DNA of 38,347 nt from Veillonellales bacterium. Lineage in GTDB: Bacteria; Bacillota; Negativicutes; JAAYSF01. The notes under the pieces were generated by a model that saw only the letters and a list, made by a program, of their open reading frames with translations, was not told where the DNA came from and made no database searches. Where the stretch lies: assembly GCA_039680175.1 (NCBI GenBank), contig JBDKTO010000101.1, positions 1 to 38,347 of the forward strand, in the 5' to 3' direction. Made by a program: the position numbers and the translations under genes. How positions within the stretch are numbered: the first letter of the stretch is position 1; each line of letters starts with the position of its first letter. Shown one piece after another: positions 1,325 through 19,379 of this stretch.

Positions 1325-2983
1325 TTACTGTGCATATATCGGAGAAGCATATCCGCCGCTCCCTGATGCCGGGGGAGCTTCACCGAGGTCTGAAATCGTT
1401 CTATTATTTATATTTGTCGTGCGCGTTAAGACTCCTCCATACCAATCATCAATCGCCTGTGCTGACCCAGACGCATCAATATCTTGAAATGTTATTCCGA
1501 AAACTTTTTCTTCTCCGATCGTTCCCATATACGAAAAGTTTGCGGCTGTACTCTCTACTGTTGAATTTATTATTGTCGGACAACTGCTGTTTATCCCACC
1601 GTATAAATACAGGCTTGTAGAAACGTTCATTTTAGCACCAGGAGAAAGCGACAACGTTGCTCCATCACCCATTTTAAAATGGCTAATCGTAGTATTGTAA
1701 TTGCCAAATAAATTTATATGTCCAGCTGTAGACGATAGCGGTATACTCAATGCTCCATAGAGATTGACCTTGTCTGCGATGAAATCGCTAAGTAGCGTTA
1801 TATTCGCAGTTTTCGTCGTACTGATTAAGGGAAATGTCATTCCGCTTGTGTTGAAAGTGACATTGCCCATTGGATGGAAACCTATTGACGTGTTATCACC
1901 AGTGATGTTTCCTGCAATGTATGTAAACGTATTCCCCTCATATATAAAATCATCATGGATGTTTATTGTTCCTGCAGGGCTGTTTATTGTTATAGGTATT
2001 CTGGGATGATATCCTGTTGTTGTTGACCCTCCAGTCGCATCGATATATCCTGTGCCTGTAAGGACTACCCCGCCGTCACCAATCCAATCTAACCCGACGA
2101 ATGATGCATTTTCTGTTATGTTTATAAAATACCCATTTCCTGTGATATTGACAGCTGATAGAGTCTGGTTAAAAAATTTACAGGTTAAATTACTATTTAG
2201 AATAGCATCATCTCGTATACCGAATTGGTCCCAAACGATTCCATCGGTGTCCAAACGTGCTGCTATAGCAAATGCAGGAACTTGCACTACTGCTCCAGTA
2301 GTAACCACGGTACCAGAAACATAAGTCAACGCCTGTCCAGGAAGGAATAACCCAGAAAAGGTTATAGTTCCGGGGGTATCGATTGTTAAGTTGCTATTGA
2401 AAGTCTGCGCAATCCCCGTTACTGTTCCCGTTCCCTTAAGCGTTACGTTGGTCGTTCCTCCCCACGTAGATGTGCCTGTATGGTTCAATCCACCAAATGC
2501 ATAGAAATTATTATTTACGAAGGTACTGGAACCTATTACCGAGATATTCCCAGTAACATTCCAATCGTCCGCCAATGTCCATGTTCCGCCGTTAAAAATA
2601 AGATTGCCAGAAATGTTTTTTCCGGCAGACGTTATCGTGGCTGTATTTTGCAGTTGTAGATTACCTGTACCAGTTATAGTCATACCCGAATTGAATTTCG
2701 TTGTAGTAGTAACCGTTAGCAATGTTTCTGGACTGAACGTCATCGTGTTCGTATAATTTTCTAAATTAAGGATAGAGCATACCTGATTTGTCGCATTGAT
2801 AGTTACCGGACCACTTGTGCCATCTGCCTGTGCAACCACGGTGTCGGATGTAGTGGGGATAGCCGCACCACCCCACGTTGCTGTATCCCCCCAGTTACCA
2901 CCCGTATCAGATATAGTCTTTATTGCCGCCTGAACATTACCGCACGCAAGAAGTAAAGCCAATAATAAAAATAATTTCTTCAT
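1325..2983 (-). CDS. Signal-peptide tail fibre/adhesin, beta-helix-like, 552 aa
   Basis: An N-terminal Sec signal (MKKLFLLLALLLACGNVQA) is followed by a long Gly/Thr/Asn/Ser-rich region with short beta-strand repeats (patterns such as TGTGNL, GTWTL, NVTGNISV). This is typical of right-handed beta-helix or autotransporter-like adhesins and phage spikes. The LLAC before Gly could also act as a weak lipobox. About two dozen Asn-X-Ser/Thr triplets are present. The C terminus is Gly/Ser/Pro-rich. The start codon overlaps the stop of the upstream fibre gene (TGATG), so translation is coupled and both are probably parts of one receptor-binding apparatus. An exported adhesin that is not part of the virion is the alternative. 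Confidence 0.6.
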   Translation of the reverse strand: MKKLFLLLALLLACGNVQAAIKTISDTGGNWGDTATWGGAAIPTTSDTVVAQADGTSGPVTINATNQVCSILNLENYTNTMTFSPETLLTVTTTTKFNSGMTITGTGNLQLQNTATITSAGKNISGNLIFNGGTWTLADDWNVTGNISVIGSSTFVNNNFYAFGGLNHTGTSTWGGTTNVTLKGTGTVTGIAQTFNSNLTIDTPGTITFSGLFLPGQALTYVSGTVVTTGAVVQVPAFAIAARLDTDGIVWDQFGIRDDAILNSNLTCKFFNQTLSAVNITGNGYFINITENASFVGLDWIGDGGVVLTGTGYIDATGGSTTTGYHPRIPITINSPAGTINIHDDFIYEGNTFTYIAGNITGDNTSIGFHPMGNVTFNTSGMTFPLISTTKTANITLLSDFIADKVNLYGALSIPLSSTAGHINLFGNYNTTISHFKMGDGATLSLSPGAKMNVSTSLYLYGGINSSCPTIINSTVESTAANFSYMGTIGEEKVFGITFQDIDASGSAQAIDDWYGGVLTRTTNINNRTISDLGEAPPASGSGGYASPIYAQ

Positions 2984-5016
2984 CAGTTCTTATATCCTCG
3001 GATTGTAACGGTAATCTTTTTTACCGTACCAAAAGCTGTAAGATTAGCCCTAAGGATATCCCCAGCATTCCAAACAGTAGTCCACCCAGTCAAATCAGTA
3101 GAGGTATTCCTCTGGTTACTGTTCAAATTTATAGGATTAGTACCATCTACATTTTGAGCAACTAATACAGGTAAAGTAGTATTCTTATATAGCTTAACAG
3201 TAGCGCTACCTGAAGCATCCCCCATTATGGCCCATTCTGTAGCGGTAAAGTTCCAAGGTAATGAGGGGTTTTCTGATGTTGAGTTGGTGGCGTTAACGAA
3301 CAGCGTAGAAACCCCGTCGCCTATTGTAAAAGTCAGAGAAGCCCTTTTAATATCAGACGAATTACTGACTGCATCATCTGTCACAGAATTTACTGAATAA
3401 TTAGCCACACCAGTCAATCCAGCGCCTGTGCCGCCTATAGCGAGTTTTCCGTCTACCGTTGCATTATCAGGTATGCCATCTAATTGAGAGCCATTACCGT
3501 AATAAAATTCTCCAGCGGTAATGTTCTTTGTGGTGTTGAGTTGATACGTCCAGTTGATATCGGCAGTTTCATTGTCGGTGAAACTGACGTATGTTCCTGC
3601 GCCGCCTGTCGTGTCTTTAGCGTTGATAGTTATATTGACAAACCCCGTTGTGGTGTCATTTTCCACTACAATATCAGTAATGTTCTCGCCAGCTATAAAT
3701 CGGGCTCGCGGTTGAGTGAAATTTATCGTTGAGTTTCCGAAGGCTGATGTTTCATTCACCCACGTTTTATTGTCGGTATTGTTCCAGGTTATTTTCTCGG
3801 ACGGGGTAACAAACACCCTTGCCGCCGTTTCGGTAATGTCATTAGCGTATAGTCCGCTGATAGTGGTATTTCCGTGATTATGGCTGTTATCTCCAACCAC
3901 GGTTGCGTTAGGAGTGCCAGTTACGTCTCCTAACAGAGCGGTATTATTTATTTTGGTAGTGTTCCAATCGGCATCAGTACCGCCTATATTGTGGAAATCA
4001 TTCGAGAGTGCGGACTTAATATTCGTGTCATTTGTAGCGTTGTAATCGTGGAAGGCCAGAGAGTGATTATATGAGGCGTTCCAGTTAGTTTTTTCCGAAG
4101 AGGTTACAAATTTATTCGTAGTCCCCTCTGTGATAGTGTCGGTATTATTGCGGGAAGTGTTAAAAAAATACTGGTCTGTAAGGGTTTTGTTATAATAATT
4201 AGTTTTATCGGCAGCCCAGGTATCATTTAACCAGGTCTTATTTCCCGTAGCGTTCCAGCTTATTTTTTCCGCAGGGGTAACCAGCACCCAGCTTGAGCCT
4301 TGCGATAAATCATCGGTATCATTGCGGGTAACGTTAAAAATAAAAGCGTGAGTGTCTATGTTTGTCTTGTTATAATAATTCGCTTTGTCAGCCTGCCATG
4401 TATCATTGACCCACGTATTGTTAGCAGTGTTATTCCACTTCGTCTTTTCAGCGGCAGTAACATGGATAGTGGTGTTGCCCGTATGTGCCGTGAAATTTGT
4501 TTCATTGGCATATCCAGCGGAAGCATGATTACCCCAACTATACGCTGTTGCCCCATTGGTAACGTTGGTGTTCGCGTCAGTATCAGCATCGGTATAATTA
4601 GAAGTACCATATCCGGCGGCGGCATGGTCGCCCCAGCCGAAAGCAGAATCCCAGTTTGTAGCATTGGTGGCTGAATAGGTACTGTTCTTAATAAACCCTG
4701 TACTGTCCCAAGAGGCAAAGTAGTCGGCGTTCACAGAGCCAAGTTGGGAAACGTTGCCTGTGCCGGAGGCGGTTGAAGAAAAAGTATAATTAACTCCGTC
4801 TGTGGAATTAGTCGCTACAATCGCTATATTCGCGCCAGAGATAAAATTTACTTTTGAATTGTTGCCTACATCGACGGATTGGTTTCGGTAGGTGGTAAGG
4901 GAAACTCCACTTTCATAATAATCAAGTTTCCCTGTATGCGGGTTAAATTTCCAATCAGCGAAACAAGCCAATGGAATCAATATTATAACAAATAATAGCA
5001 AAATTATCTTTTTCAT
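2983..5016 (-). CDS. Signal-peptide tail fibre with repeats, 677 aa
   Basis: Residues 1-20 look like a Sec signal peptide (MKKIILLLFVIILIPLACFA). The mature start, DWKFNPHTGKLDYYES, resembles the N-terminal motif of many phage tail fibres. Repeats follow of the kind common in fibre shafts: AYSWGNHASAGY, VTAAEKTKWNN, VTPAEKISWN, TSSEKTNWN, VTPSEKITWNN. The C-terminal ~120 residues look like a beta-sandwich tip. Asn-X-Ser/Thr triplets are extremely frequent, roughly 55 by eye. The probable role is receptor recognition. A signal peptide on a fibre is unexpected, since fibres normally assemble in the cytoplasm. No clear ribosome site precedes the ATG. Confidence 0.7.
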   Translation of the reverse strand: MKKIILLLFVIILIPLACFADWKFNPHTGKLDYYESGVSLTTYRNQSVDVGNNSKVNFISGANIAIVATNSTDGVNYTFSSTASGTGNVSQLGSVNADYFASWDSTGFIKNSTYSATNATNWDSAFGWGDHAAAGYGTSNYTDADTDANTNVTNGATAYSWGNHASAGYANETNFTAHTGNTTIHVTAAEKTKWNNTANNTWVNDTWQADKANYYNKTNIDTHAFIFNVTRNDTDDLSQGSSWVLVTPAEKISWNATGNKTWLNDTWAADKTNYYNKTLTDQYFFNTSRNNTDTITEGTTNKFVTSSEKTNWNASYNHSLAFHDYNATNDTNIKSALSNDFHNIGGTDADWNTTKINNTALLGDVTGTPNATVVGDNSHNHGNTTISGLYANDITETAARVFVTPSEKITWNNTDNKTWVNETSAFGNSTINFTQPRARFIAGENITDIVVENDTTTGFVNITINAKDTTGGAGTYVSFTDNETADINWTYQLNTTKNITAGEFYYGNGSQLDGIPDNATVDGKLAIGGTGAGLTGVANYSVNSVTDDAVSNSSDIKRASLTFTIGDGVSTLFVNATNSTSENPSLPWNFTATEWAIMGDASGSATVKLYKNTTLPVLVAQNVDGTNPINLNSNQRNTSTDLTGWTTVWNAGDILRANLTAFGTVKKITVTIRGYKN

Positions 5017-5021
5017 AATTT

Positions 5022-5369
5022 TTAGAATATTTCACTGAAAATATCATAAGTAAGACCAGCCCTACCTGTCCATGCGGTTGCGTATGCGGTTGCTCCTTTG
5101 CAATAAGTATACGTTTGATCGCCGGTAGTTGTTTCCTCTTTCATAATGTACCAGTTTCCATCAGCGTCTAAATAACCGTAATATTTGACAGCAGCATCAG
5201 CATCAACATCACTTATTTTGTATTTCGCCGTGGGGTCGCTTCCTAAAACATCGCCTCCGCTTCCGATGAGGATAACTTTAAAACCAAAGTCGCTGCCTAA
5301 TTTTTCTATAACCTTTCCTATTAGTTCGCTTTCGTGAGCATACTCACCGTATTTAGTCAACCCACCCAT
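5022..5369 (-). CDS. Putative tail-associated protein, 115 aa
   Basis: A small acidic protein with a phage-like style: an N-terminal helix (TKYGEYAHESELIGKVIEKLG), then beta-rich text with KYYGYLDADGNWYIMKEETT and a C-terminal ATAWTGRAGLTYD. Such sequences occur in structural or tail-tip proteins next to fibres, but I cannot name a family. A strong AAAGGAGAAATAAACT ribosome site precedes the ATG. It lies 5 nt before the 677-aa fibre gene and 3 nt after the coiled-coil gene, so it belongs to the fibre operon. Confidence 0.55.
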   Translation of the reverse strand: MGGLTKYGEYAHESELIGKVIEKLGSDFGFKVILIGSGGDVLGSDPTAKYKISDVDADAAVKYYGYLDADGNWYIMKEETTTGDQTYTYCKGATAYATAWTGRAGLTYDIFSEIF

Positions 5370-5372
5370 AGT

Positions 5373-6209
5373 TTATTTCTCCTTTAATTCCTCTATCGTC
5401 TTTTTATTCTCAAGATTTTTTTGTGCTTTCTTTACCCTTAACCTGTCAGCCTCAACCTCTTTAGCAATAGATTCAAGCTCCGATTCTTTTTCAATCAAAT
5501 CTTTCTCTCTTCTCTCAACCGCCGTAAGCCTATTTTCTGCGTCTTTAAGCGTAGCTTCCGCTCTCTTTAATTTCTCATCAGAAAGAGAAAGGTTGTCTTT
5601 GACGCTTTTTTCTTTTTCATCAACGGTAGTCTTCAGCTCTATATATTCCTGCATTTTTTTATCGAGGATATTCTTTTCTGCAATGAGCAAGGCGCATTGT
5701 TTTGCGGCTTCGTCTTTGCTTTTTAAGTTCTCCGCTTCCTGCATTTTAAGCAATTCTTTACCCACCTCTATTTCACCCTTGATAACGAGCAACGCTTTCT
5801 TTTCTTCCCCGATTTTGAATAGGTCAAGGGCAACCACTCTCTCCGCCTCTGCCTTTTTTACCTTGATAATTTCATCTAAAGCGTATGTTTCCTGGCGGCG
5901 GTTGTTTATCCCTATGTCAAGAGCCTTGATCTGCTCATTAAGGTTGTTGATATTATCGGATAAGGAAGTTTTATTTATTTTCAACTTTTCAATTTCCTTG
6001 GAGCATTTTTCTGCCTCGACCACTACTTTTGAAAGTGACATTTCGGCTCCTTCTCTTTTTTGATTAACTTCCTGCTCTTTCTTGATTTCCTTTTTAATAT
6101 TATCTTTAAGCTGCTCCAAAAATTTGCTTGCGCTATCAATTTCTGTTTTAAGCTGTTCTAAAAATCTGCTTGCGTCTTTAACCTTGTCTTCGATATTCTG
6201 TTCAACCAT
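5373..6209 (-). CDS. Long coiled-coil protein, 278 aa
   Basis: The whole protein is Lys/Glu/Leu-rich heptad text without Pro or Gly interruptions and without a membrane segment, so it should form an extended coiled coil about 250 residues long. The N terminus holds a short internal duplication (ASRFLEQLKTEID then ASKFLEQLKDNIK). It heads the tail-fibre operon and has a strong AAAAAGGAGGATAT site before ATG. A fibre stalk, fibre adaptor or assembly chaperone would fit the position. No sequence family is recognised. Confidence 0.65.
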   Translation of the reverse strand: MVEQNIEDKVKDASRFLEQLKTEIDSASKFLEQLKDNIKKEIKKEQEVNQKREGAEMSLSKVVVEAEKCSKEIEKLKINKTSLSDNINNLNEQIKALDIGINNRRQETYALDEIIKVKKAEAERVVALDLFKIGEEKKALLVIKGEIEVGKELLKMQEAENLKSKDEAAKQCALLIAEKNILDKKMQEYIELKTTVDEKEKSVKDNLSLSDEKLKRAEATLKDAENRLTAVERREKDLIEKESELESIAKEVEADRLRVKKAQKNLENKKTIEELKEK

Positions 6210-6270
6210 ATATCCTCCTTTTTAAAAATCGCTCCACGTTTCGTTTCCAGCCCTTTTCGATTTCAGCCAT
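6202..6270 (-). CDS. Tiny basic leader ORF, 22 aa
   Basis: The ORF encodes MAEIEKGWKRNVERFLKRRI plus YG, an amphipathic basic helix, and ends 8 nt inside the coiled-coil gene in another frame. Its codons contain that gene's ribosome site (AAAGGAGGATAT), so it could act as a leader peptide coupling translation. A G-run upstream (GGGGGGG) is a poor ribosome site. It reads like real protein but is short enough to be chance. Confidence 0.35.
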   Translation of the reverse strand: MAEIEKGWKRNVERFLKRRIYG

Positions 6271-6300
6271 ACCAAGTACAGCCCCCCCTATTTTTACATC

Positions 6301-6330
6301 AAAAAAGCATTGAAAACATTACGCTTTTTG
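6301..6330. terminator. A/T-flanked hairpin, possible bidirectional terminator
   Basis: AAAAAGC (6302-6308) pairs with GCTTTTT (6323-6329) around a 14-nt loop, giving a U-run at the 3' side on either strand. The stem is weak (only two GC pairs), so efficiency is doubtful. It sits upstream of the fibre operon, between it and the regulatory stretch. Confidence 0.35.
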
Positions 6331-6369
6331 AGCCACTTTTAAGGGGTTTAAGACATTTACCATTATTGA

Positions 6370-6399
6370 TAGTCATTAGTAGTCATTATTTATCATTCC
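6370..6399. repeat. 10-bp-period direct repeats (TAGTCATTAG type)
   Basis: Units TAGTCATTAG (6370), TAGTCATTAT (6380) and a degenerate TTATCATTCC (6390) follow one another at exactly 10 bp, one helical turn. This is what a protein binding cooperatively on one face of the DNA would need. The array lies in the regulatory gap between the fibre operon and the plus-strand promoter at 6502. The remainder of 6271-6500 shows only AT-rich sequence with no convincing gene. Confidence 0.45.
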
Positions 6400-6501
6400 A
6401 CGTCAGTAAAGCGCACAAAAACAGGATAAAAAAGCACATAGGCATTGCGAAAACAGAGAAAATAAGGCACTCGGAGAACCGGATAGCCCTTTTTATTTTG
6501 C

Positions 6502-6529
6502 TTGACTTTTTTAAGATTTTAGATATCAT
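6502..6529 (+). promoter_or_regulatory. Candidate sigma70-type promoter for short RNA
   Basis: TTGACT (6502-6507), a 16-nt spacer and TATCAT (6524-6529) on the plus strand. Initiation would fall near 6536, and a strong terminator lies 75 nt further on. It is one of few plus-strand promoter-like sites, and the transcript would contain no obvious ORF. Confidence 0.5.
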
Positions 6530-6535
6530 AAAGTT

Positions 6536-6611
6536 GCCTTAAAAACGACTAAAATAACCTGGTTTTCTTTCTTGTCGCCGGTTTACTTAGTCGTTTTCCG
6601 GCGACTTTTTT
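6536..6611 (+). ncRNA. Candidate ~75-nt regulatory RNA with competing hairpins
   Basis: Between the promoter at 6502 and a U-run, two perfect helices interleave: 6542-6552 with 6587-6597 (11 bp, AAAACGACTAA/TTAGTCGTTTT) and 6574-6581 with 6598-6605 (8 bp, GTCGCCGG/CCGGCGAC). The second is an intrinsic terminator. The 3' arm of the first lies within its loop, so the two must compete or form a pseudoknot. No ORF is seen. It could be a trans-acting small RNA or an attenuator upstream of the plus-strand gene at 6846. Confidence 0.55.
6574..6611 (+). terminator. Intrinsic terminator
   Basis: An 8-bp perfect GC-rich stem (GTCGCCGG/CCGGCGAC, 6574-6581 and 6598-6605) with a 16-nt loop is followed directly by TTTTTT (6606-6611). 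It ends the short plus-strand RNA. The loop holds TTAGTCGTTTT, complementary to 6542-6552. Confidence 0.75.
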
Positions 6612-6614
6612 ATG

Positions 6615-6734
6615 TCAGTGCCGCACTATGCGAATTTTTCCAAGAGAAGAAAATTTAATTTTAACCCCGTCTTTCGTTGAAATTTTTGGTAAAATGCTGG
6701 TATTAACATCAATCCATTTTTTACTTTTTTTCAT
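6615..6734 (-). CDS. Small basic protein, 39 aa
   Basis: MKKSKKWIDVNTSILPKIST begins a Lys-rich 39-residue protein ending KIRIVRH. A very good ribosome site (AAAAAGGAGCTTAT) precedes ATG, the main reason to call it. It is divergent from the plus-strand gene at 6846 and its stop lies 4 nt past the U-run of the plus-strand terminator, so the two transcripts would meet there. No family is recognised. A small DNA- or RNA-binding regulator is possible but unproven. Confidence 0.55.
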   Translation of the reverse strand: MKKSKKWIDVNTSILPKISTKDGVKIKFSSLGKIRIVRH

Positions 6735-6765
6735 ATAAGCTCCTTTTTAAATGTTTTATTTCGGC

Positions 6766-6795
6766 TTGACAGCTACCTAATTTAAAAGATAGAAT
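6766..6795 (+). promoter_or_regulatory. Candidate promoter of the plus-strand cargo genes
   Basis: TTGACA (6766-6771), an 18-nt spacer and TAGAAT (6790-6795) lie about 50 bp upstream of the ATG at 6846. It gives the two plus-strand genes their own transcription, independent of the phage operons running the other way. Confidence 0.6.
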
Positions 6796-6845
6796 ACAAG
6801 TAATAATAAAAAACAATATAAACCAACCACAAACCACAAGAAACC

Positions 6846-7376: not shown

Positions 7377-7410
7377 CAAAGAACAAATAAAAAAATAAGG
7401 AGATGAAATT

Positions 7411-7497
7411 ATGTGGACAATTGCCGGTGGAATTTTACTCGCATTTCTCATTATCGCTGTCATTGGTTCAATCTTTCAATATTTTACTGGCGGTTAA
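7411..7497 (+). CDS. Tiny membrane protein, 28 aa
   Basis: A single hydrophobic segment fills the protein (MWTIAGGILLAFLIIAVIGS, then IFQYFTGG). An excellent AAGGAGATGAAATT ribosome site supports it despite its size. It follows the 176-aa membrane gene by 34 nt and likely shares its transcript. It converges on the 423-aa ejection protein: both genes take their stop from the same TTAA (7494-7497). Confidence 0.6.
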   Translation: MWTIAGGILLAFLIIAVIGSIFQYFTGG

Positions 7498-8765
7498 CGC
7501 TTAACCCAAGTCAACGGATTTATTTTTTGTATCCTTGTATATGCTTGTGCTCCTCGTAATTTTTGACCTGTTTCTTTAGTAATCATTTGAGCAACCCTTC
7601 TTCCTTGTGTAGTATCTGTCAATCCACCTTTAGTTAAAAATCTTTCTCCTTTTGCAGTTTTCATCTCTGGTGCATATAAATCTATTGCTTCGTGCGTCAT
7701 TTGTTGATTTTCCTTAAAATTTCTGTATCTCATTTTTGCCGCAGAAAAAGCCTTATTGTTTATTTGGTCTGATACACTATTAAAAAAATCATTGGCGGCT
7801 TGTATGTCTTGTCTTTGCGCAGGAGTTGGTTTACCAGTATATTTTCCTCTTATGTTCTTATATTCAGCAACTATATCTTGCATACCTATTTCACCTTTGG
7901 GATTATTAGCCCACTTTCGAGAAATATTCTGGTATGCTTTTATTAACTTATTGTCAGCATTGGTAAATCCCCTTTGCAACGTTCCTTCGGGAGTTAAAAG
8001 ATTTTTCTTAGATAATGTTTCTTCTAACTTTTGAATAACATCAGCACCTTGAACGTTGCCAGTTCCTCCTTTTGGTAAATCTTCTATTGCTTGCCCAAAC
8101 GCTTTCCATTCTTGAGGAGCATATTTATTCCAAAAATTTTCTCTGATAGCATTAACTTTATTAGCTGGATAATCTCTTACTTTTGAAACTGTTTCCGTAG
8201 GTATTTTTCTTATATCTCTAACAATCTTCTTCCCCGCACTATCTATCATTTTTGTAGTTTTCCCTTTCGATAATCCTCCAGTCAACGCCGCCATTCCACC
8301 TAAACCAGTTAAAGCAGAAATAGGTTCATTTAGAATGCCTCCAAATCCCGTTGTTCTTATCCAATCCCCTAATTGCGCCTGTCTTTGCCCCTTGAGTGCT
8401 TTAAACGCTTCTGTGGGTATCATAGCTGGCTGGTTGCGCTGCACAGCTAACCCTGCCGCTGCAATGGGGGCTTCTGCTGTACCAAAAACAGCGCTTCCTA
8501 CATCTTGTTGGTTTCTCATAAAAGAAAGTGGCCCCACAGGATTAAACAAAGATTTTATAGGGTGTTGTTGTAATTCCTGCGCTGAATTTATTAACCCTTG
8601 AAACTGTGAGCCACGTTCTTTTATCTTTTGTTCTGTTCTCGCAAGATTAGGCAAAAATGCTTCTTTCTTCGGCATTACTTCTGGCTCAATAGCAGTTCCC
8701 TCATCTAAATAAGTTATTTTCGCTTTTCTTGTCACCGGTGCTTCATCTAAATATATTATCGACAT
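7494..8765 (-). CDS. Putative ejection/internal virion protein, 423 aa
   Basis: The third of three consecutive genes that resemble podovirus DNA-ejection proteins: long, helical, Gln/Ala/Lys-rich and with a central Gly/Ala-rich hydrophobic stretch (about residues 145-165, SALTGLGGMAALTGGLSKG) that could insert into a membrane. The N terminus repeats a short motif (IIYLDEAPVTRK then ITYLDEGTAIEP). No enzymatic motif is seen. A TTAGGAGTTGATCA site precedes ATG. It ends the virion operon, which fits an ejection-protein role. Confidence 0.55.
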   Translation of the reverse strand: MSIIYLDEAPVTRKAKITYLDEGTAIEPEVMPKKEAFLPNLARTEQKIKERGSQFQGLINSAQELQQHPIKSLFNPVGPLSFMRNQQDVGSAVFGTAEAPIAAAGLAVQRNQPAMIPTEAFKALKGQRQAQLGDWIRTTGFGGILNEPISALTGLGGMAALTGGLSKGKTTKMIDSAGKKIVRDIRKIPTETVSKVRDYPANKVNAIRENFWNKYAPQEWKAFGQAIEDLPKGGTGNVQGADVIQKLEETLSKKNLLTPEGTLQRGFTNADNKLIKAYQNISRKWANNPKGEIGMQDIVAEYKNIRGKYTGKPTPAQRQDIQAANDFFNSVSDQINNKAFSAAKMRYRNFKENQQMTHEAIDLYAPEMKTAKGERFLTKGGLTDTTQGRRVAQMITKETGQKLRGAQAYTRIQKINPLTWVKR

Positions 8766-8775
8766 TGATCAACTC

Positions 8776-9936
8776 CTAATTTATTATCGCCCTGCGTCCA
8801 CCTATCATTACTTCACCTTTGTAGCCTGATGCTTCGGCTTCTTGTTCGTTGGTGAAAGAAGGTGTACTACCTCCTGCTGTTTGCGTAGGAATAACCTCTT
8901 GCCCTTTCTTTTGGGTATATGACTGTATCCTTGAATTTAAAAAATTGTTAAGTTCTTCTTTTTTAGTCGTCCTTTGTTTTGTAGTGTCAGAAAACCCTGG
9001 CATTAAGTTATACGCTCTTTTTATATCCTGACTATTTAAAACACCTTTCTCTCCTAAACTGCGTATCATCATGGATACCGTACCATCAAGAAATTGCTGG
9101 TATGTAATCGCGTTTTCATCGGATACACCTAAAAGCCGTTGAGGCCTTACCCCAAATATAGTTGCGCTTCCTGCCTTTCTTCCAACACCAGCACTCTCTG
9201 CTTCTTTTGGAGTATTCGCGGATGGTATCAATTTATCTGCGGTTGTCCACGCAGCGTCTATCATTCCTTTTGCTTCGTTTGAAAGGTTTGTCGCTTCGAT
9301 TTTCATCTGTGACATTTTTTTATCTGCCGCAATATTTCCTGGTGTTTCTTTGTTGTTTTTTGTTATTTTATATACTTTCCCTGTAGCCTCATCCCTCCAA
9401 AAACCTTCGGGTACTGCGCCAGTAGGTATTGTTTTATCCGGTGTCTTTGCAGGAAGTCTGTAAACCTTTCCCGTTGCTTCATCGCGCCAAAACCCTTCTG
9501 GCACTGTAGTCTTCAAAGGAGTTGCTTGAGGATTACTTTCTAATGGTTGCTCCCCAACATTTTCTTGCACTTCTTCAATAGGTACTTTGTAAATTTTTCC
9601 TGATGTTCTATCTCTCCAAAGTCCTGGGGGTAGACTTTCCTCACTATAATTTGCTTGAGGCTTCTCTCTTAATCTTTGTTTCAATGTTTCTCGTACTATA
9701 AAATCATTCAAATCATTTCCTCTTGTCCTCTGTACCGGCTGCAATCCCCCTCTCTGTAAAAATACATTTCCTACGTTTTGTAAGGTGTCCTGAACTGCAT
9801 TTGCCCTGCTGTTTTTCTGCTGTGCTTCAAGCTGTTGAATATTTGCTTGCAATTCTTCATCGCTCATATTCTTGAGCCAATCGGGGCGAGAGCCTAATGA
9901 TTTCATCCTGGTTATAGCGTTAATCACATCTGCCAT
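8776..9936 (-). CDS. Putative ejection/internal virion protein with WRD repeats, 386 aa
   Basis: Three copies of a ~17-residue motif of the form (V/L)PxG(F/L)WRDxx(T/S)GK(V/I)Y lie at about residues 102-118, 145-161 and 175-191, separated by Pro/Thr/Gln-rich linkers. The remainder is helical, with a domain at about 210-340 (NLSNEAKGMIDAAWTTAD; YQQFLDGTVSMMIRSLGEKG). It sits between two other ejection-like proteins, so a role in the injected core is probable. The WRD motif may bind another virion component or DNA. AGGAGAAATAATT precedes ATG. Confidence 0.55.
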   Translation of the reverse strand: MADVINAITRMKSLGSRPDWLKNMSDEELQANIQQLEAQQKNSRANAVQDTLQNVGNVFLQRGGLQPVQRTRGNDLNDFIVRETLKQRLREKPQANYSEESLPPGLWRDRTSGKIYKVPIEEVQENVGEQPLESNPQATPLKTTVPEGFWRDEATGKVYRLPAKTPDKTIPTGAVPEGFWRDEATGKVYKITKNNKETPGNIAADKKMSQMKIEATNLSNEAKGMIDAAWTTADKLIPSANTPKEAESAGVGRKAGSATIFGVRPQRLLGVSDENAITYQQFLDGTVSMMIRSLGEKGVLNSQDIKRAYNLMPGFSDTTKQRTTKKEELNNFLNSRIQSYTQKKGQEVIPTQTAGGSTPSFTNEQEAEASGYKGEVMIGGRRAIIN

Positions 9937-9947
9937 AATTATTTCTC

Positions 9948-10670
9948 CTAATTACCATATCCTGTGGTTACGTATGGTTTATTATTTCTTGTAGATAATT
10001 CTTGTTTAAGCCAATCAAGCATCTGGTCTTGTTGCCCCATTCCGTATATCCCACTCCCTACACTGAACGCAGTACCTATCGCCTGATTGATATTTGCTTG
10101 ATTTTGTGCATTCGCATTAGTTTGCCTATTCTGGTCATAATTAAAATTTCCCACATTGAATTGGTTTTCTAATCCTGCGTTTTGCGCCCCTATCCCTGCC
10201 TCACTTCTGGCAAAATCACCAGCGAGATTTTCATAGCGAGCTGTATCTGATTTAGTCTGTAAAAGATTTTTAAGATAAGCGTCAGCCATTATGCTGTTTA
10301 TGTCTCGTTCCTTTTGAGCGTAAGCCTGCCCTATATCGCGGGCTGCAATAGTTGAACGTGATAGTCCTCTTGCTCCATAGGAAGCCTCAAGCGCTGGTTT
10401 TTCTCTTAAATCCCACCCTGCGTTACGTTCAGCGATAAAAGGGCTTGTGGCCTTATCTATATAGTCAGTTGGGAAACCTATTCCCGCTCCTTGATTAAGA
10501 GCGGCAAGGATACGATTATTCAAAGTTTTTCCTGTTTCGTAATCCGTGAGTTGCGGAGCCTTAACAACATCTGGAAAAGAACCAGTATTTTTTTTCTGTG
10601 TAGCTTTACCGATACCATAAGACAATCCACCCGCTGCAAGAGCCGCTAAAGCCGGAATAAAAAAACCCAT
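9948..10670 (-). CDS. Putative ejection/internal virion protein, 240 aa
   Basis: The N terminus is hydrophobic and glycine-rich (MGFFIPALAALAAGGLSYGI), followed by an Ala/Gln/Asn-rich helical body (YGARGLSRSTIAARDIGQAY, ANAQNQANINQAIGTAFSVG). This is common in the small ejection proteins of P22-like and other podoviruses. I place the start at the ATG at 10670 because GGAGGTAAGT immediately precedes it. An upstream in-frame start would overlap the Cys-cluster gene. It is the first of three adjacent ejection candidates. Confidence 0.6.
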   Translation of the reverse strand: MGFFIPALAALAAGGLSYGIGKATQKKNTGSFPDVVKAPQLTDYETGKTLNNRILAALNQGAGIGFPTDYIDKATSPFIAERNAGWDLREKPALEASYGARGLSRSTIAARDIGQAYAQKERDINSIMADAYLKNLLQTKSDTARYENLAGDFARSEAGIGAQNAGLENQFNVGNFNYDQNRQTNANAQNQANINQAIGTAFSVGSGIYGMGQQDQMLDWLKQELSTRNNKPYVTTGYGN

Positions 10671-10672
10671 AC

Positions 10673-10882
10673 TTACCTCCGATAGCCGCACTTAAGCGGC
10701 AACAAATTTAATTCTTCCATTTTTTGCGCTGTTAAGCACCAAGATGGACGATTATTATAAATAGAACATAAATTATCTTTTGTGAGGTGTTTACAAACCA
10801 TGTCAGTTTTTAATTTATTTCCTTTGTCATCATAAAACGTAAGATAACAACACGTTCCGCATCGTTTACATTTGTCTTCCAT
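10673..10882 (-). CDS. CxxCxxCC cysteine-cluster (YkgJ-like) protein, 69 aa
   Basis: The pattern CKRCGTCC at residues 5-12, then CKHL (30), C at 39 followed by IYNNRP, C at 49 and C at 65 matches the zinc/iron-chelating CxxCxxCC family (YkgJ type, PF03692). Members bind metal, but their function is poorly defined. It is very short for the family, near the minimal domain. It is embedded in the virion operon, starting at the stop of the 75-aa gene (TAATG) and ending 2 nt before the first ejection-like gene, so a part in virion assembly or redox/metal handling is possible. Confidence 0.8.
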   Translation of the reverse strand: MEDKCKRCGTCCYLTFYDDKGNKLKTDMVCKHLTKDNLCSIYNNRPSWCLTAQKMEELNLLPLKCGYRR

Positions 10883-11109
10883 TACGTTATCGCAACAGTA
10901 CTCCCAGGTGTAAAAACTAAAATAGTCGAGCCAACTCTCTGATATAAAACATTGCTATATACGCCCCATTCATAATCTTTAAGTAAAGGAGCAGTTGCCG
11001 TCGGAGCGGCGCTCAACGTTAAAACTTTTCCCTGTGCTTCTTGAAAAATATGGTTAAGGACATTTTTTGTTTCATCATCTTTTACTAAATTTGTTGACAC
11101 TTCAAGCAT
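10882..11109 (-). CDS. Hypothetical virion-operon protein, 75 aa
   Basis: A short helical N terminus (NLVKDDETKNVLNHIFQEAQ) is followed by beta-rich text (YEWGVYSNVLYQRVGSTILVFTPGST). The second part reads like a small beta-barrel or domain of a tail protein. A GAGGAATATTGAT site precedes ATG. It lies between the signal-peptide appendage protein and the Cys-cluster protein. I cannot assign a family. Confidence 0.6.
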   Translation of the reverse strand: MLEVSTNLVKDDETKNVLNHIFQEAQGKVLTLSAAPTATAPLLKDYEWGVYSNVLYQRVGSTILVFTPGSTVAIT

Positions 11110-11110
11110 A

Positions 11111-12433
11111 TCAATATTCCTCTATTTCTAACATCCTTGGCCCCTCAATAGTGGCATTCTGATACACATAGTTATTTGCCGAAGGTTTCCATTTTGCGTC
11201 TATGGTATGCGTTCCCGCAGACAATGTTCCATACCACTTAACATTGATATTATTTGTTGATACCGCAGCGCCATCGGCGAATTTCGCTGTTTCCGAAGTC
11301 AAACCAACGCTATCCGCGGAGATGGCAAAATTTACCGTTTTAGTATTAGCGTTATCGCCGTTAAATCTACCCGTAAATGTTATTTTCACCGGTCTTCCGC
11401 TGGAATAAAACCTCGCTTCCATGTCTGGTATAGTTCGATGCGCGGTGTTATAATTTGTGCTTGTGTCGGTATATCCCCTGATGACAACATGATTAGGAGC
11501 GTCACCACCTAAACCCCTATATGCTCCTATGCTATCAACTGATATTGTGCTTGCCGAAGGAGCATAGCACCAGCCAACTAATCGCTCCCCAGTGACACCA
11601 GTAGCGTCTGTGGCTGAAGTAGAAGCTATACCTTCAAAATTGTTAGAGTTATCATCATCGGCAACGGCGTAAATATAATAATAGCCTTGCGCTAATGAAC
11701 CGGTATCAAGACCTCCGCGCCCAGATGCTGCAAAACTTACATTAGCGTTGGCAGTATTTCTTCGTACTTTCCCAGCGCTTGAGCCAAATTCTATTTCACC
11801 CCTTCCGATAGTAACCAATGTAGCCGTTCCAGCATCTCTCGAAAGTAACGCACCAGATTTTATATCTTGGTACACCCGCAAATTAGGAGGCGTAAGTTGG
11901 CGCATATCGGTTACGGAAGTAATCGATGTTGCGTCAGTAACAACCTTTGCCAATAATAAAGAATTTAGAGGATTTGACGGTTGCGTCGCCCCATTCGCCA
12001 CAGCCGAATACTGGAAGGCTCCAGTGTTGTCTATATAGACATAAGTATCTCTGCTTGCCGTATATGTTTTAGACGTTGCATTCGTTACTATTCTTGCTCC
12101 GGTAACGTAACTTGTTCCCGCTGAAATATCAGAAATCAATGTCGCTGATGTAGCAGGCAACATTCCTGTATACGTCCAATCTCCTATACCCTCGGTGTAC
12201 CAATTAGAAAATTTAATCGCCGTAGCAAGGTCAGCGTCAGTCACTCCAGAGTCAAGAAGATTTGTGGCATCTATGTTCCCATTGTAATCGTTATAGATTT
12301 TGCTATAAGCATCATTTAAGTAGGCATAAGATACTCCTGTGTCACTGGTTAACGCATTGTAACTTATTATCGCTGCATTACCGATGTTCAACGGAGATAT
12401 GGAAATCAATAAAAAAAATAAAAACTTTCTCAT
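11111..12433 (-). CDS. Signal-peptide appendage/tail-fibre-like protein, 440 aa
   Basis: A Sec signal (MRKFLFFLLISISPLNIGNA, cleavage before AIIS) is followed by Ser/Thr/Ala/Asn/Gly-rich beta text without long helices. It includes a segment found in many phage fibre or baseplate-like proteins (NSLLLAKVVTDATSITSVTD, then RQLTPPNLRV). The last ~110 residues look like a carbohydrate-binding-type beta-sandwich (PVKITFTGRFNGDNANTKTV; HTIDAKWKPSANNYVYQNAT). TAGGAGGAAAGA precedes ATG. The position directly after the propeller-like tail protein suggests a virion appendage, and the signal peptide is unexpected for that role. Confidence 0.6.
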   Translation of the reverse strand: MRKFLFFLLISISPLNIGNAAIISYNALTSDTGVSYAYLNDAYSKIYNDYNGNIDATNLLDSGVTDADLATAIKFSNWYTEGIGDWTYTGMLPATSATLISDISAGTSYVTGARIVTNATSKTYTASRDTYVYIDNTGAFQYSAVANGATQPSNPLNSLLLAKVVTDATSITSVTDMRQLTPPNLRVYQDIKSGALLSRDAGTATLVTIGRGEIEFGSSAGKVRRNTANANVSFAASGRGGLDTGSLAQGYYYIYAVADDDNSNNFEGIASTSATDATGVTGERLVGWCYAPSASTISVDSIGAYRGLGGDAPNHVVIRGYTDTSTNYNTAHRTIPDMEARFYSSGRPVKITFTGRFNGDNANTKTVNFAISADSVGLTSETAKFADGAAVSTNNINVKWYGTLSAGTHTIDAKWKPSANNYVYQNATIEGPRMLEIEEY

Positions 12434-12442
12434 TCTTTCCTC

Positions 12443-13945
12443 CTAAACATATTGGTTACGTATTATATATTTTGGCAATGACTTAAACGCTATACTGTAA
12501 AATTCCAACTCAGTGCCTCCGTTGTTTTCGTATATCTCAAACGATATAGAATTTCCTCTTCGATAATTACATAGAGGCACTATCCTATCGTTAAGCAAAG
12601 AGCTGTTTGATAAATGGATAGACCCCACATCCCTCGTTTCCCCCCGTACGCTTAGATTTGAAGACGCGCCGATAGAGTATCTTCCGTTAAGAAAATATTT
12701 GAATATAGCGTTTAAAGAATAATGCCCTGGTTTTGCCTTTATGAAAAAATCAAGGAAGTCATGTACCATATCCTCGCTTACCACCACTTCAGCAGTCCTT
12801 ACGATAGTCTCAATCGCTGTGCTGTCAAAATCCCAGCCGCGATTATGATACATAAGACAGCCAATATCAGAACGTCCGGTAAGAAGTTCGTTACTATCCC
12901 CCTGTTGATTCATCACCGCATAACTTAAAACATTAGAGCCTTTTACCAGGCTCCACTTAGGTTTACCGTCAGCTTGCGGTTCTGTTATGCAATAAATAAG
13001 TTCACAGTTATTAGAATCAATTGGTGATTCTCTGTGTTTGAAAGCAAAACGGAATAATCCGTTATGCACGGCCATACAAACACTTTCAATCGAGTCGTAC
13101 GTGGTATCTATTATTTCCCTTAAACGTATATCAGCTTCGGTAAGGTTCATTATCGAAGACTCTGAACCTCCGAAAAAATATAGTTCTTTGTCAAATTCAT
13201 TCAAAAATATGAATCCAGAACCTACCGCACATATCGCCCGCTTACTTGCCAGACCATATTTTGTAGTTATGCAGCGAGCTTGGAATGAGGAAGGAGTCCT
13301 TCCAAGTAATTCATAGATGGAATTATTTTTAAAAATGTAAATAGTATCATTGGCTCCTTTAACCACAGCTATATTGATTGAATCTTGAGCGTTACCGATT
13401 AAAATAGTGTCTTCTATGGTTTCAGGAGTTATTTCTTCTGAATAATCCAAATCAGAACTATTGTTTTTTATATAGAATACCCTGTCTAAATGTTCAACCG
13501 CAGCCATGATGTCGGCGTCAAGCGTTGTTCTTTCAAACGTATATGAACCATTACCGTCATACTTGTAAGGAGTTTCTAAGCCGGTAAATGAATAAAGTAT
13601 GGAATTTCCGCTGACTTGAAACGTTAAGTCAGTAGGTATTGCATTTGTAGGAAACCCACCTTGAGCCAATGTCAATGCCCCTGTAACATCATTGCCAGAA
13701 TAAAAAGAACCATTTGAAAAACAAATCGTCCGTTTTACAAACGTTCCGTCACCTCGTTTATGGTATGAACGCTTGACATAAGGGATTTTATTCGTTAATG
13801 CTGTGGGGTTATACCTGGTTGTTCCGCCTACTTTTGTTATCTTATTGTCGCGCACTATATAGTTTTGCAAAACGCTACACTTGCCCTCACCTATTAAGTG
13901 CGCCGGTCTTGTTCTACACCATCCATTATTAAAAGTTACTATCAT
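12443..13945 (-). CDS. Tail tube/stabilisation protein, beta-propeller-like, 500 aa
   Basis: The sequence is beta-rich throughout with recurring short blades (KITKVGGTTRYN; GNSILYSFTGLETPYKYDG; ANDTIYIFKNNSIYELLGR; GSGFIFLNEFDKELYFFGG). It resembles podovirus tail hub or stabilisation proteins that sit below the adaptor, such as P22 gp10-like or T7 tail-tubular-B-like proteins. No signal peptide. The start overlaps the stop of the O-antigen polymerase gene by 4 nt. Family assignment is by shape and position, so the exact name is uncertain. Confidence 0.6.
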   Translation of the reverse strand: MIVTFNNGWCRTRPAHLIGEGKCSVLQNYIVRDNKITKVGGTTRYNPTALTNKIPYVKRSYHKRGDGTFVKRTICFSNGSFYSGNDVTGALTLAQGGFPTNAIPTDLTFQVSGNSILYSFTGLETPYKYDGNGSYTFERTTLDADIMAAVEHLDRVFYIKNNSSDLDYSEEITPETIEDTILIGNAQDSINIAVVKGANDTIYIFKNNSIYELLGRTPSSFQARCITTKYGLASKRAICAVGSGFIFLNEFDKELYFFGGSESSIMNLTEADIRLREIIDTTYDSIESVCMAVHNGLFRFAFKHRESPIDSNNCELIYCITEPQADGKPKWSLVKGSNVLSYAVMNQQGDSNELLTGRSDIGCLMYHNRGWDFDSTAIETIVRTAEVVVSEDMVHDFLDFFIKAKPGHYSLNAIFKYFLNGRYSIGASSNLSVRGETRDVGSIHLSNSSLLNDRIVPLCNYRRGNSISFEIYENNGGTELEFYSIAFKSLPKYIIRNQYV

Positions 13946-15144
13946 ATAAGTATTTGTTCTTCGTTATTTGTCGATATATAAAAAAACGCCAAGAGTAAAG
14001 GCGCAATATGCGCTATTCTCGCTAAATGAAATGGAAATTGCGTTTGCATGAAAATAAATAAGGCGACAATGCTTGCCATGCTCGCCACAGTTTCTTTTGA
14101 CATCTTGCTTTTGATGAAACGCTGCCATAGGTGATAAAGAAATATTCCCAATAATATCAACCCCATTATCCCCGTTTCATAGAACAACCAAAGAACCTCA
14201 TTGTGCGGATGATCCCAAAAATCAAAAATCTTTCCATCAAGTTTAAATTTTTCTACCATTTCCCTCGAAGGAGCCCCTTTAATAAATAAACCTTCATCGG
14301 TTAGTATTGCTTTTACCGCTTTATTGTTCATTACCGGCTTTAAATACCTTCCGTCTCCTTTCATCTTTGGTACTCTGAACGAATCAAGCCCATGTCCGGT
14401 AAGCGGCTTACGGAATGAATCTTGTGTAACTATTTTCCACATAGCAACCCTTGTTCCCTGCATACCCATAGGATTATCAATGAAGACTATAAAAGATACG
14501 ACCGCGGAGATTGTCGGTATCAATAACCACCAGAATAAAATCCTTCGTTTATACCAAAGATAAAAAAATGTAGCCACCGTAGCCCCGATATATGCTCCAG
14601 TACTCCAAGAGAATATAAGCGGTATGAATAAAAGAAAAGCCGTCCAGCTAAAAGTGATTAGCAAGGGGATAACAATAGCAAAGTATCCACCCATAACTGC
14701 TTCTAACGCGAAGAAAGAGGAATGCGGGGTTATACCTTGGTCTTTTAAAACTATTCCACGTAAATCAAAATCGAAATATTGTAAGGCTAAATACAAAACT
14801 CCTGCTCCAGCCACCCAAGATATACCTTTGATAAGAAATTGAATATCTTGTTTATTTAACGTTTTTAAAGCCGTGTAATATATCATAAGCCCAAGGAAAG
14901 CATTAAAGGCTATACTCCACCCTGAAAGATGGATTAGATAGGTTATGAATACCCACGCCATAAGCAAAGAGAACCAAAGATTGAATTTATCACGCTTTAA
15001 CGATTTATTACCAAAAGCAAGACCAGCGCCTATCAAGATAATACTTGATATTTGAAAAATAAATTCCTGTGATTGCCGTATCTCCTGGTTAACGATATAC
15101 GAAACAGGATTAAGTAGTAAAAAAATCAGAAATAAATATTTCAT
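13942..15144 (-). CDS. O-antigen ligase/polymerase-family membrane protein, 400 aa
   Basis: Roughly 10-12 hydrophobic segments cover the protein. A large non-membrane loop lies at about residues 226-310 before WDHPHNEVLWLFYETGIMGL. The GTRVAMWKIV, GHGLDSFRVP and HPHNEVL motifs are characteristic of the Wzy_C/WaaL superfamily (O-antigen polymerases and ligases), which have key Arg and His residues in the periplasmic loop. It would act in the host inner membrane on undecaprenyl-linked glycans. It is unusual here because it sits inside the virion operon, with 4-nt overlaps to the adaptor gene upstream and the tail gene downstream. The likely role is surface-polysaccharide alteration (serotype conversion or superinfection exclusion). 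Confidence 0.85.
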   Translation of the reverse strand: MKYLFLIFLLLNPVSYIVNQEIRQSQEFIFQISSIILIGAGLAFGNKSLKRDKFNLWFSLLMAWVFITYLIHLSGWSIAFNAFLGLMIYYTALKTLNKQDIQFLIKGISWVAGAGVLYLALQYFDFDLRGIVLKDQGITPHSSFFALEAVMGGYFAIVIPLLITFSWTAFLLFIPLIFSWSTGAYIGATVATFFYLWYKRRILFWWLLIPTISAVVSFIVFIDNPMGMQGTRVAMWKIVTQDSFRKPLTGHGLDSFRVPKMKGDGRYLKPVMNNKAVKAILTDEGLFIKGAPSREMVEKFKLDGKIFDFWDHPHNEVLWLFYETGIMGLILLGIFLYHLWQRFIKSKMSKETVASMASIVALFIFMQTQFPFHLARIAHIAPLLLAFFYISTNNEEQILI

Positions 15145-15866
15145 AGGTTAGGTAAATACATAGAACCGCCGGACTCTCGCACGTCTCTTACGTTCCTTTC
15201 TCTGTGGGATTCGGTAACAGGAAGCTCGCCGATAATCAAAGAATTATCTTGTATCATCCTTTGCACCCCTGCCTCATATATTGCCTGTTGCGCCCTCCAA
15301 TCTCCAAGTTGAGGGTCAACTCTATACGCATAAACAAGAGCTCCGTCAATAACCACAGAATCATACTTTGCTGGTATATCTCCCGCAGTTGCGGCATCGG
15401 TTAAATCGGTAATAATCTTAACGTAATCTATGTACGTTGTTACTATCGCACTTGGACGAGGGTACAACATCAAGTAATTAGCGAATATTGTCCACAATAT
15501 CGCACTTCCGCTGTTGCTTGTTTCATCTGCTATCGCCCTCCTGAACCGTGCGTAATCAACGTACTTATATGTCCAATCATATGTTTTATCGTATAAAGAA
15601 ACTATCTTTGTTGTGTCTATATCTGTCGCTATCCCCCCCACACCGGTAAAGGCATAGCTAAAGGTACTCGCTATTGTAGGAAAATTTGCCTGTTTCTCAA
15701 GAAAACGCCAATGGAAATGCTGTTGCCTGTTTGAAATATCTTTTTGTATTAAATTGAGCCAACCCAATGCGGAAGAGCGATAAACAGTATCACTCGCACT
15801 TTTGTCAGCCAACCCTAAGAGTGTCGCTGAACCACATAATGTATTTAAGAAAGCAGCACCTGTCAT
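15141..15866 (-). CDS. Head-tail adaptor/connector protein, 241 aa
   Basis: It begins MTGAAFLNTLCGSATLLGLA, and the text that follows (SALGWLNLIQKDISNRQQHFHWRFLE, split here as SALGWLNLIQKDISN and HWRFLE) looks like the helical podovirus adaptor that docks under the portal. The C-terminal part has beta text with DDY-like connectors (AKYDSVVIDGALVYAYRVDP). The start at 15866 is chosen because GGAATTTT precedes it. Longer in-frame readings would run into the hairpin at 15884. It follows capsid genes and precedes the O-antigen polymerase, to which it is coupled by an ATGA overlap. Confidence 0.6.
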   Translation of the reverse strand: MTGAAFLNTLCGSATLLGLADKSASDTVYRSSALGWLNLIQKDISNRQQHFHWRFLEKQANFPTIASTFSYAFTGVGGIATDIDTTKIVSLYDKTYDWTYKYVDYARFRRAIADETSNSGSAILWTIFANYLMLYPRPSAIVTTYIDYVKIITDLTDAATAGDIPAKYDSVVIDGALVYAYRVDPQLGDWRAQQAIYEAGVQRMIQDNSLIIGELPVTESHRERNVRDVRESGGSMYLPNL

Positions 15867-15883
15867 AAAATTCCTTTTTTGGT

Positions 15884-15922
15884 AAGAGGGGCTGGGGATT
15901 GCTCCCCAACCCACTCTTTTTT
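15884..15922 (+). terminator. Long hairpin; intrinsic terminator in plus direction
   Basis: AAGAGGGGCTGGGGA (15884-15898) pairs across a TTGC loop with TCCCCAACCC and CTCTT (15903-15918, one bulge), a stem of about 15 bp. On the plus strand TTTTTT follows, a canonical terminator against antisense transcription. On the sense (minus) strand no U-run follows, so there it more likely acts as an mRNA stabilising or processing structure between the capsid-region genes and the adaptor. It fills most of the 62-nt gap. Confidence 0.65.
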
Positions 15923-15928
15923 AAAATC

Positions 15929-16498
15929 TTAGTACAACCATACTGGCATAAGTCCGTCTGTTGCTGTGTCACTAAGTAACACACCAATGTCAGCGCTTAT
16001 CACCGTACTTGCTGCATTCAAACTCGCCTTCGTTCCAAAACTACCGTATTGAGCAGTATCAGAACCATTTGGCACAAGTTGTTCACCTGATGCGGCAACT
16101 GAAGTGTCAACCTTCGCTAAAGCAAATCCATGTACTGCCATGTAACCCCAGTTCCTTGAACCTCCAATAAGCGATGAAGTATCTGCTGTCGCAATATCAG
16201 TTACAAGCACACCCGCATAAGACATTGCGGCTGAAACCGTGCAACGTGAAATAGTAACTCCATCAGCAGAGTTTAAATCCCACACAACGACATCACCGGA
16301 AGATAAACCGGCGACACTATTTCCACGCATAGCGTAGCGAACCCTCACTACATCTGTTGGCGGGGTAATACCCGTAGAACCTCCACCACCATAAATATCG
16401 TTGATATTCTGGGAAGTGGGTGCTTCTGCGTACACTAACGGTAAACCTCCAAGAAGAAGGAATACCGCAATGAAAATCGAAAAAATCTTTTTATTCAT
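15929..16498 (-). CDS. Signal-peptide protein after capsid gene, 189 aa
   Basis: A clear Sec signal peptide (MNKKIFSIFIAVFLLLGGLP, cleaved after LVYA before EAP) is followed by a 165-residue beta-rich domain (VVRVRYAMRGNSVAGLSSGD; VVWDLNSADGVTISRCTV; NWGYMAVHGFALAKVDTSVA). Proteins at this place, straight after the major capsid gene, are often decoration or head proteins, and the domain resembles those beta-rich virion proteins seen after capsid genes. An export signal on such a protein is odd. TAAGGAGGAAAACA precedes ATG. Confidence 0.6.
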   Translation of the reverse strand: MNKKIFSIFIAVFLLLGGLPLVYAEAPTSQNINDIYGGGGSTGITPPTDVVRVRYAMRGNSVAGLSSGDVVVWDLNSADGVTISRCTVSAAMSYAGVLVTDIATADTSSLIGGSRNWGYMAVHGFALAKVDTSVAASGEQLVPNGSDTAQYGSFGTKASLNAASTVISADIGVLLSDTATDGLMPVWLY

Positions 16499-16509
16499 TG
16501 TTTTCCTCC

Positions 16510-17565: not shown

Positions 17566-17574
17566 AGTTCTCCT

Positions 17575-19118: not shown

Positions 19119-19379
19119 TTACCCTCGCTCCATTTTTCTATGTTGAGAGTCACGGTATTCTTTTTCTACACCGTAATACTCATTAGTTATTTTTTCCCTG
19201 TCCTTTGGGTTTTTAAATCTGCTTAATTGCCCGTTTATCTTGTCGAGCTTATTACATATAGAGAAATCACCACGTTGCGCTCCCTTTGCCTTAGACAGTC
19301 CGCTTTGAATATCTTCATGCTTTCGTATCGCTTCCGCGGTAAGCCGTGAACGCTCGTAATCGTCATACTCTTTAGCCAT
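19119..19379 (-). CDS. Hypothetical protein after portal, 86 aa
   Basis: A charged, helical protein (YERSRLTAEAIRKHEDIQSG; NEYYGVEKEYRDSQHRKMER). Its start overlaps the portal stop by 8 nt, so translation is coupled. A G-run at the portal end may act as the ribosome site. No family is recognised. A chaperone or head accessory would fit the place. Confidence 0.6.
   Translation of the reverse strand: MAKEYDDYERSRLTAEAIRKHEDIQSGLSKAKGAQRGDFSICNKLDKINGQLSRFKNPKDREKITNEYYGVEKEYRDSQHRKMERG

Follow-up and report, generated by a model that had tools for sequence, protein, structure and literature searches.

Tailed phages are generally thought to complete their particles in the cytoplasm. The coat proteins of filamentous phages (inoviruses) are made with Sec signal peptides, and the assembly of these phages is extrusion in the membrane. 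The glycosyltransferases of mycobacteriophages Che8 and Rita act in the cytoplasm, on unexported proteins. The virion proteins of these two phages bear glycans and phage enzymes are implicated, as far as the account of Freeman 2023 cited in PMC11256854 goes. Within the WaaL/PglL superfamily of membrane enzymes, WaaL transfers a lipid-linked glycan to the lipid A core and PglL transfers it to protein; simple sequence comparison separates the two poorly, and the genes of protein O-oligosaccharyltransferases (PglL) mostly adjoin the gene of an exported target protein (PMC3643930). The temperate phages D3, phi297 and VarioGold carry genes for O-antigen ligase- or polymerase-like enzymes that are regarded as conversion genes (PMC4815439, PMC9658991). 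Glycosylated virions are already known from mycobacteriophages, and Sec-exported virion components from filamentous phages; their combination in tailed phages may be unreported: in the open-licence literature, we found no description of a tailed phage with exported virion proteins or of a phage protein oligosaccharyltransferase.

Here we analysed a 38,347-nucleotide stretch of DNA, hereafter the window, which shares features with each of these systems. As in filamentous phages, predicted Sec signals are present on putative virion proteins, but here they are found only on the exterior parts of a capsid-and-short-tail phage. Glycosylation of the kind attributed to Che8 and Rita is not known to involve Sec signals or lipid-linked en bloc transfer. 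The membrane enzyme encoded in the window resembles PglL and TfpO (PilO) of Neisseria, Acinetobacter and Pseudomonas (PMC3643930) in its Wzy_C domain, WaaL-superfamily fold, putative periplasmic reaction, and the adjacency of its gene to genes for exported proteins, but it is encoded in a virion operon and its putative targets are signal-bearing virion surface proteins rather than pilins. With WaaL (7tpg) it shares the fold, the conserved Arg and His and the HNx9GxxG motif, but it is located outside any LPS locus and is linked to exported phage proteins. Finally, like D3, phi297 and VarioGold, this phage carries a Wzy_C-type enzyme, but in those temperate phages the respective genes are read as conversion genes, whereas here the gene lies between the adaptor and nozzle genes of the virion operon.

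Genome organization and relatives

The window, a single contig in a bin of 4.08 Mb, has an exact 127-base direct terminal repeat (positions 1-127 and 38221-38347), so that it is most simply interpreted as a complete circular phage contig; that it belongs to a chromosome of the bin is improbable. Its GC content is 40%, compared with 45% in the sampled bin. The late genes are all on the minus strand and encode a large terminase-like protein (21165-22856); the portal or head-tail connector (19372-21162), with a weak match to PF12236 below the cut-off; a probable scaffolding protein (17575-18573), assigned by position and acidic composition; the major capsid protein (16510-17565; phrog_9953); a 189-aa protein directly downstream of it (15929-16498), hereafter the post-capsid protein; a tail adaptor or head-completion protein (15141-15914; phrog_10775); a 400-aa polytopic membrane protein with the Wzy_C domain of the O-antigen ligase/protein O-oligosaccharyltransferase superfamily (13942-15144); a tail nozzle or head-closure-like protein (12443-13945), with weak PHROG matches and 53% identity to its homologue in the relative L003; a 440-aa fibre-like protein encoded after the nozzle gene (11111-12433); three internal or ejection-type proteins (9948-10691, 8776-9936 and 7494-8765), assigned by position and composition; and two further fibre-like proteins, one of 677 aa (2983-5016) and a beta-rich one of 552 aa (1325-2983). 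Genes for a tail tube or a tape measure were not recognised in the window, which suggests a podovirus-like phage. A small Cys-rich protein (CKRCGTCC...) is encoded in the same operon between the internal and fibre genes (10673-10882).

When the capsid, post-capsid and Wzy_C proteins served as queries, 12 related phages were retrieved from IMG/VR, along with a truncated contig that belongs to an Omnitrophota bin. The order in the relatives is capsid, signal-bearing protein, in some cases small genes, adaptor, Wzy_C, in some cases signal-bearing fibres, nozzle, and signal-bearing fibre; it varies slightly, for example, in L092, where the Wzy_C gene precedes the adaptor. The capsid proteins are 56-63% identical to those of the two nearest relatives, and the identity of the nozzle drops to 27% in one distant relative. 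Among the cultured phages of INPHARED, there was one weak match to the capsid protein and one to a fibre domain, and none to the portal, the nozzle or the product of 2983-5016. No homologue of the latter protein was found in any search, including a search of IMG/VR for the sequon-rich fibre.

By its position, the product of 15929-16498 is probably a capsid-surface (decoration) protein, and gene order likewise suggests that the fibre-like proteins are parts of the virion. The post-capsid protein matched no database family and showed no sequence match to known decoration proteins, and its AlphaFold model (pLDDT 42) was too poor for assigning a fold. When profiles from the alignments of the post-capsid, fibre and Wzy_C proteins were searched against PDB sequences, nothing matched.

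Predicted signal peptides of putative exterior proteins

The four genes that a preliminary description of this DNA had singled out for their export signals (15929-16498, 11111-12433, 2983-5016 and 1325-2983) are all present as ORFs on the minus strand, and all four begin with canonical Sec/signal peptidase I sequences, with a K-rich n-region, a hydrophobic core and an A-x-A-type site, that is, small residues at -3 and -1. With a slash marking the site, the N termini are MNKKIFSIFIAVFLLLGGLPLVYA/EAP in 15929-16498, where cleavage is predicted after A24; MRKFLFFLLISISPLNIGNA/AI in 11111-12433, with cleavage predicted after A20; MKKIILLLFVIILIPLACFA/DW in 2983-5016; and MKKLFLLLALLLACGNVQA/AI in 1325-2983, for which the detection rule described below places the site earlier. 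Export of the signal-bearing proteins is thus strongly predicted.

The starts of 15929-16498 and 11111-12433 are preceded by AGGAGG at a distance of approximately 8 nt, and 1325-2983 shares 1 nt with the gene upstream. The gene 2983-5016 starts 5 nt past the stop of 5022-5369 and contains no further Met codon until near the C terminus. Its lack of a clear Shine-Dalgarno sequence is the one feature that would fit an artefact, whereby the signals would stem from wrong start codons or from hydrophobic N termini arising by chance. Given the strong AGGAGG before the signals of the other two genes and of most relatives, and the recurrence of homologous signals among as many as 15 divergent proteins, such an artefact is hardly credible; for 15929-16498 and 11111-12433, the ribosome-binding sites and the conserved cleavage site rule out a start-codon artefact.

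To assess the distribution of the signals, a single home-made rule (positive n-region charge, a hydrophobic 8-mer and an A-x-A-type site) was applied throughout 13 related phages and one truncated contig. This rule fires on 19 of 607 spurious ORFs (3.1%) and, among the structural genes of T7, P22 and lambda, on one of 45, namely, Lom, an outer-membrane protein. Signals were detected in 23 of the 26 putative exterior proteins (13 of 15 post-capsid proteins, eight of nine fibres encoded after the nozzle, and both of the other two window fibres), as opposed to one of the 80 core virion proteins (capsid, 0/13; scaffold, 0/14; portal, 0/10; adaptor, 0/13; nozzle, 0/11; internal, 1/19). The three exterior proteins missed by the rule resemble signal peptide-containing proteins by eye, and the sole match among the internal proteins (9948-10691) is probably a false positive; none of the three internal proteins of the window has a convincing signal.

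The signals claimed in the preliminary description also hold up when start sites and N termini are compared across the relatives. The 14 other copies of the post-capsid protein are homologues with a signal, most of them preceded by AGGAGG. The Ala at -1 is invariant in the 15 aligned post-capsid proteins and in the eight aligned fibre proteins, and the n-region charge is +2 in all 15 post-capsid proteins. We also considered whether the signal evolves faster than the mature part and rejected this idea, the mean identity being 37% in the signal and 30% in the mature part.

Some virion proteins have hydrophobic N termini, and the segments described here could in principle be uncleaved membrane-insertion or assembly segments of proteins made in the cytoplasm. 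The match of the rule to the internal protein 9948-10691 fits this explanation, but the n/h/c organisation, the constant n-region charge and the invariant Ala of the post-capsid proteins, together with the absence of such segments from the core proteins, make it very unlikely.

A further alternative accepts export, the direct prediction from what appear to be real signals, but holds that the exported proteins are not virion components; they would be secreted or displayed on the cell surface as decoys, receptor blockers or adhesins and, together with the O-antigen enzyme, would remodel the host surface. This scenario, raised in the preliminary description, found no specific pointer in our analysis, and we consider it unlikely. 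The signals occur only at the gene positions of exterior virion proteins, and the genes involved occupy the canonical decoration and fibre places of the late operon in every relative, in phages that would otherwise lack a recognisable fibre at those positions. Moreover, the fibre encoded after the nozzle has signal-less homologues in other phages: the fibre domains homologous to 11111-12433 in three more distant phages, MW202497, G540 and G541, have no signal, so that the domain itself does not need one. The other proposal of the preliminary description, that assembly involves the membrane, fits better with signals that are confined to proteins marked by gene position as exterior.

In several relatives, the interval from the post-capsid gene to the adaptor encodes additional proteins with signals (L003, 11911-13135; L081, 7089-7361; L082, 8326-8595; L085, 8943-9227; L087, 8588-8893). 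A signal-bearing family of about 90 aa recurs in this interval and has no convincing Pfam match.

The Wzy_C membrane enzyme

The product of 13942-15144 matches PF04932 (Wzy_C) with 34.1 bits, against a curated cut-off of 31.7, and the Pfam Wzy_C domain was found in all members scanned in the relatives. In VIA-align, the model of this protein (pLDDT 68) has WaaL (7tpg) as its best match (Z 18.4, rmsd 4.1, 322 residues), followed by the SEDS glycosyltransferases FtsW and RodA (Z 11.8-13.6), after which Z drops to 5.6. Foldseek with the same model returned nothing at E <= 0.001, so that the WaaL fold assignment rests on the second look with VIA-align. The HNx9GxxG motif, which we take to be common to ligases of the WaaL/PglL superfamily (presumably as the ligase motif H[NSQ]x9Gxx[GTY] in the large loop), is present in 13 of the 15 phage Wzy_C proteins; the His is H314 in the window. 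The PglL-specific domain PF15864 (PglL_A) was detected in none of the Wzy_C proteins, which apart from Wzy_C showed only weak unrelated Pfam matches; in this respect they differ from PglL and agree with PilO/TfpO, which also lack the domain (PMC3643930). The O-antigen polymerase that had been described in this operon is located there and conserved in that location, but it looks like a WaaL/PglL-type ligase or transferase rather than clearly a polymerase.

The Wzy_C gene of the window shares 4 nt with each of its neighbours, the adaptor gene on one side and the nozzle gene on the other, and a 4-nt overlap with the adaptor is found in most relatives. The gene is present in all 13 phages that have a signal-bearing post-capsid protein. 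All five phages fetched via the post-capsid protein carry it and, conversely, among nine further phages fetched via Wzy_C, seven encode a signal-bearing post-capsid protein. The other two, G540 and G541 (L098-L101), encode Wzy_C upstream of or beside the terminase genes; both keep signals on some other proteins, one of which, in G540, is encoded directly after the probable capsid gene. Adjacency to genes for exported proteins is the arrangement seen for PglL-type protein O-oligosaccharyltransferases.

The Wzy_C enzyme could instead modify host lipopolysaccharide, excluding other phages or shedding the receptor at lysis, while the exterior proteins would be exported into the virion for folding or attachment only. 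The name of the domain (O-antigen ligase) and the presumed conversion genes of D3, phi297 and VarioGold speak for this possibility. However, translation of the Wzy_C gene is coupled to that of virion genes, alongside which it has been retained across distant relatives; it lies inside the virion operon and is not independently oriented, and a scan of window proteins, which covered part of the small ORFs, revealed no integrase. These are not the features of a lysogenic conversion module, and we regard the lipopolysaccharide as a rather doubtful target.

In one relative, L087, a long signal-bearing fibre gene is closely followed by two ORFs (16357-16989 and 17116-17943), one for a sulfotransferase (PF13469, 8e-17), the other, without a Pfam match, possibly for a glycosyltransferase-like protein.

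Sequon excess in two fibre-like proteins

In the 677-aa fibre-like protein (2983-5016), N is followed by S or T at +2 in 55 cases, compared with about 20 expected and with 15-31 at the other offsets from -6 to +6, and T prevails over S at +2 by 44:11. The protein contains 54 true N-x-S/T sequons, against 20.1 +/- 3.8 in dipeptide-preserving shuffles (z 9.0). The 552-aa protein (1325-2983) contains 24, against 12.1 +/- 2.9 in shuffles of the same kind (z 4.1). There is no sequon excess in 15929-16498, 11111-12433 or the core proteins of the window. In the relatives, the signal-bearing proteins show a mild pooled excess (111 at +2 vs 70-89 at other offsets), unlike the other proteins (151 vs 152-188). 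The pattern in the two window fibres is that expected of N-glycosylated exported proteins.

No STT3 was found in the bin that includes the window, and the exported proteins of the bin (about 275 kb sampled) show no sequon enrichment, which leaves the N-glycosylation branch without an enzyme. The Omnitrophota bin to which the closest relative contig (L008) belongs encodes a distant STT3-like protein. Because the bin lacks both STT3 and the sequon excess, and the closest relative belongs to an Omnitrophota bin, we do not trust the assignment of the bin as the phage host. A search for a cytoplasmic HMW1C-type N-glycosyltransferase yielded no match, with the control equally silent.

A proposed two-compartment model of virion assembly

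Taken together, the confinement of the signals to certain proteins, the invariance of the cleavage site and the co-inheritance of a ligase gene located among the virion genes are best explained by export and periplasmic glycosylation of the exterior proteins. We propose that these proteins are exported, glycosylated in the periplasm, and join the cytoplasm-built particles at lysis, and assign this reading a probability of roughly 0.5. Predicted export and the linkage to the enzyme gene are its well-supported parts; actual export, virion membership of the exterior proteins (from gene order), glycosylation, the identity of the enzyme responsible, and joining at lysis are what we infer.

Under this model, the core components (portal, scaffold, capsid, adaptor, nozzle and internal proteins), which have no export signals, would assemble in the cytoplasm as usual. 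The post-capsid protein and the fibres would cross the inner membrane by means of their Sec signals, be cut at the A-x-A-type site, and take on their fold in the periplasm. A lipid-linked host glycan would be attached there by the phage membrane transferase, a member of the WaaL/PglL superfamily whose gene is translated together with those of the virion, and the sequon richness of the two window fibres suggests that a host enzyme may add N-glycans. The finished exterior proteins would meet the particles once the inner membrane is breached at lysis. A more specific version, in which a lineage of tailed phages combines a naked cytoplasmic core with Sec-exported exterior proteins that are glycosylated in the periplasm by the phage's own WaaL/PglL-type transferase and, in this phage, additionally at dozens of N-sequons, yielding virions coated with host glycans, is put forward tentatively, as somewhat short of an even chance.

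If the exterior proteins are indeed exported, the picture of tailed phages completing their particles in the cytoplasm would have to be altered, and the question would arise of how periplasmic parts reach the particles across the membrane. A phage glycan transferase acting on virion proteins would represent a new route to glycan-coated phages. Such coats would bear on host recognition and persistence, and the enzymes could be a possible source for glycobiology.

Other genes of the window

Three other loci of the window show unusual features. In the protein encoded at 32227-33084, a GSAQVKNIC/Y-like unit of 9 residues recurs about 14 times; the underlying DNA is a tandem repeat of 27 bp (94% matched) at 32377-32752. 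A C5 cytosine DNA methylase is seemingly split between 29313-30059 (N-terminal half) and 28986-29279 (C-terminal motifs). The ORF at 33526-34653 joins an HNH-like N-terminal part to an SLT lysozyme domain; an internal GTG would start a signal-bearing lysozyme (VRKIFLIILLSSFCITAHADE...), which suggests either two genes or an exported lysin.
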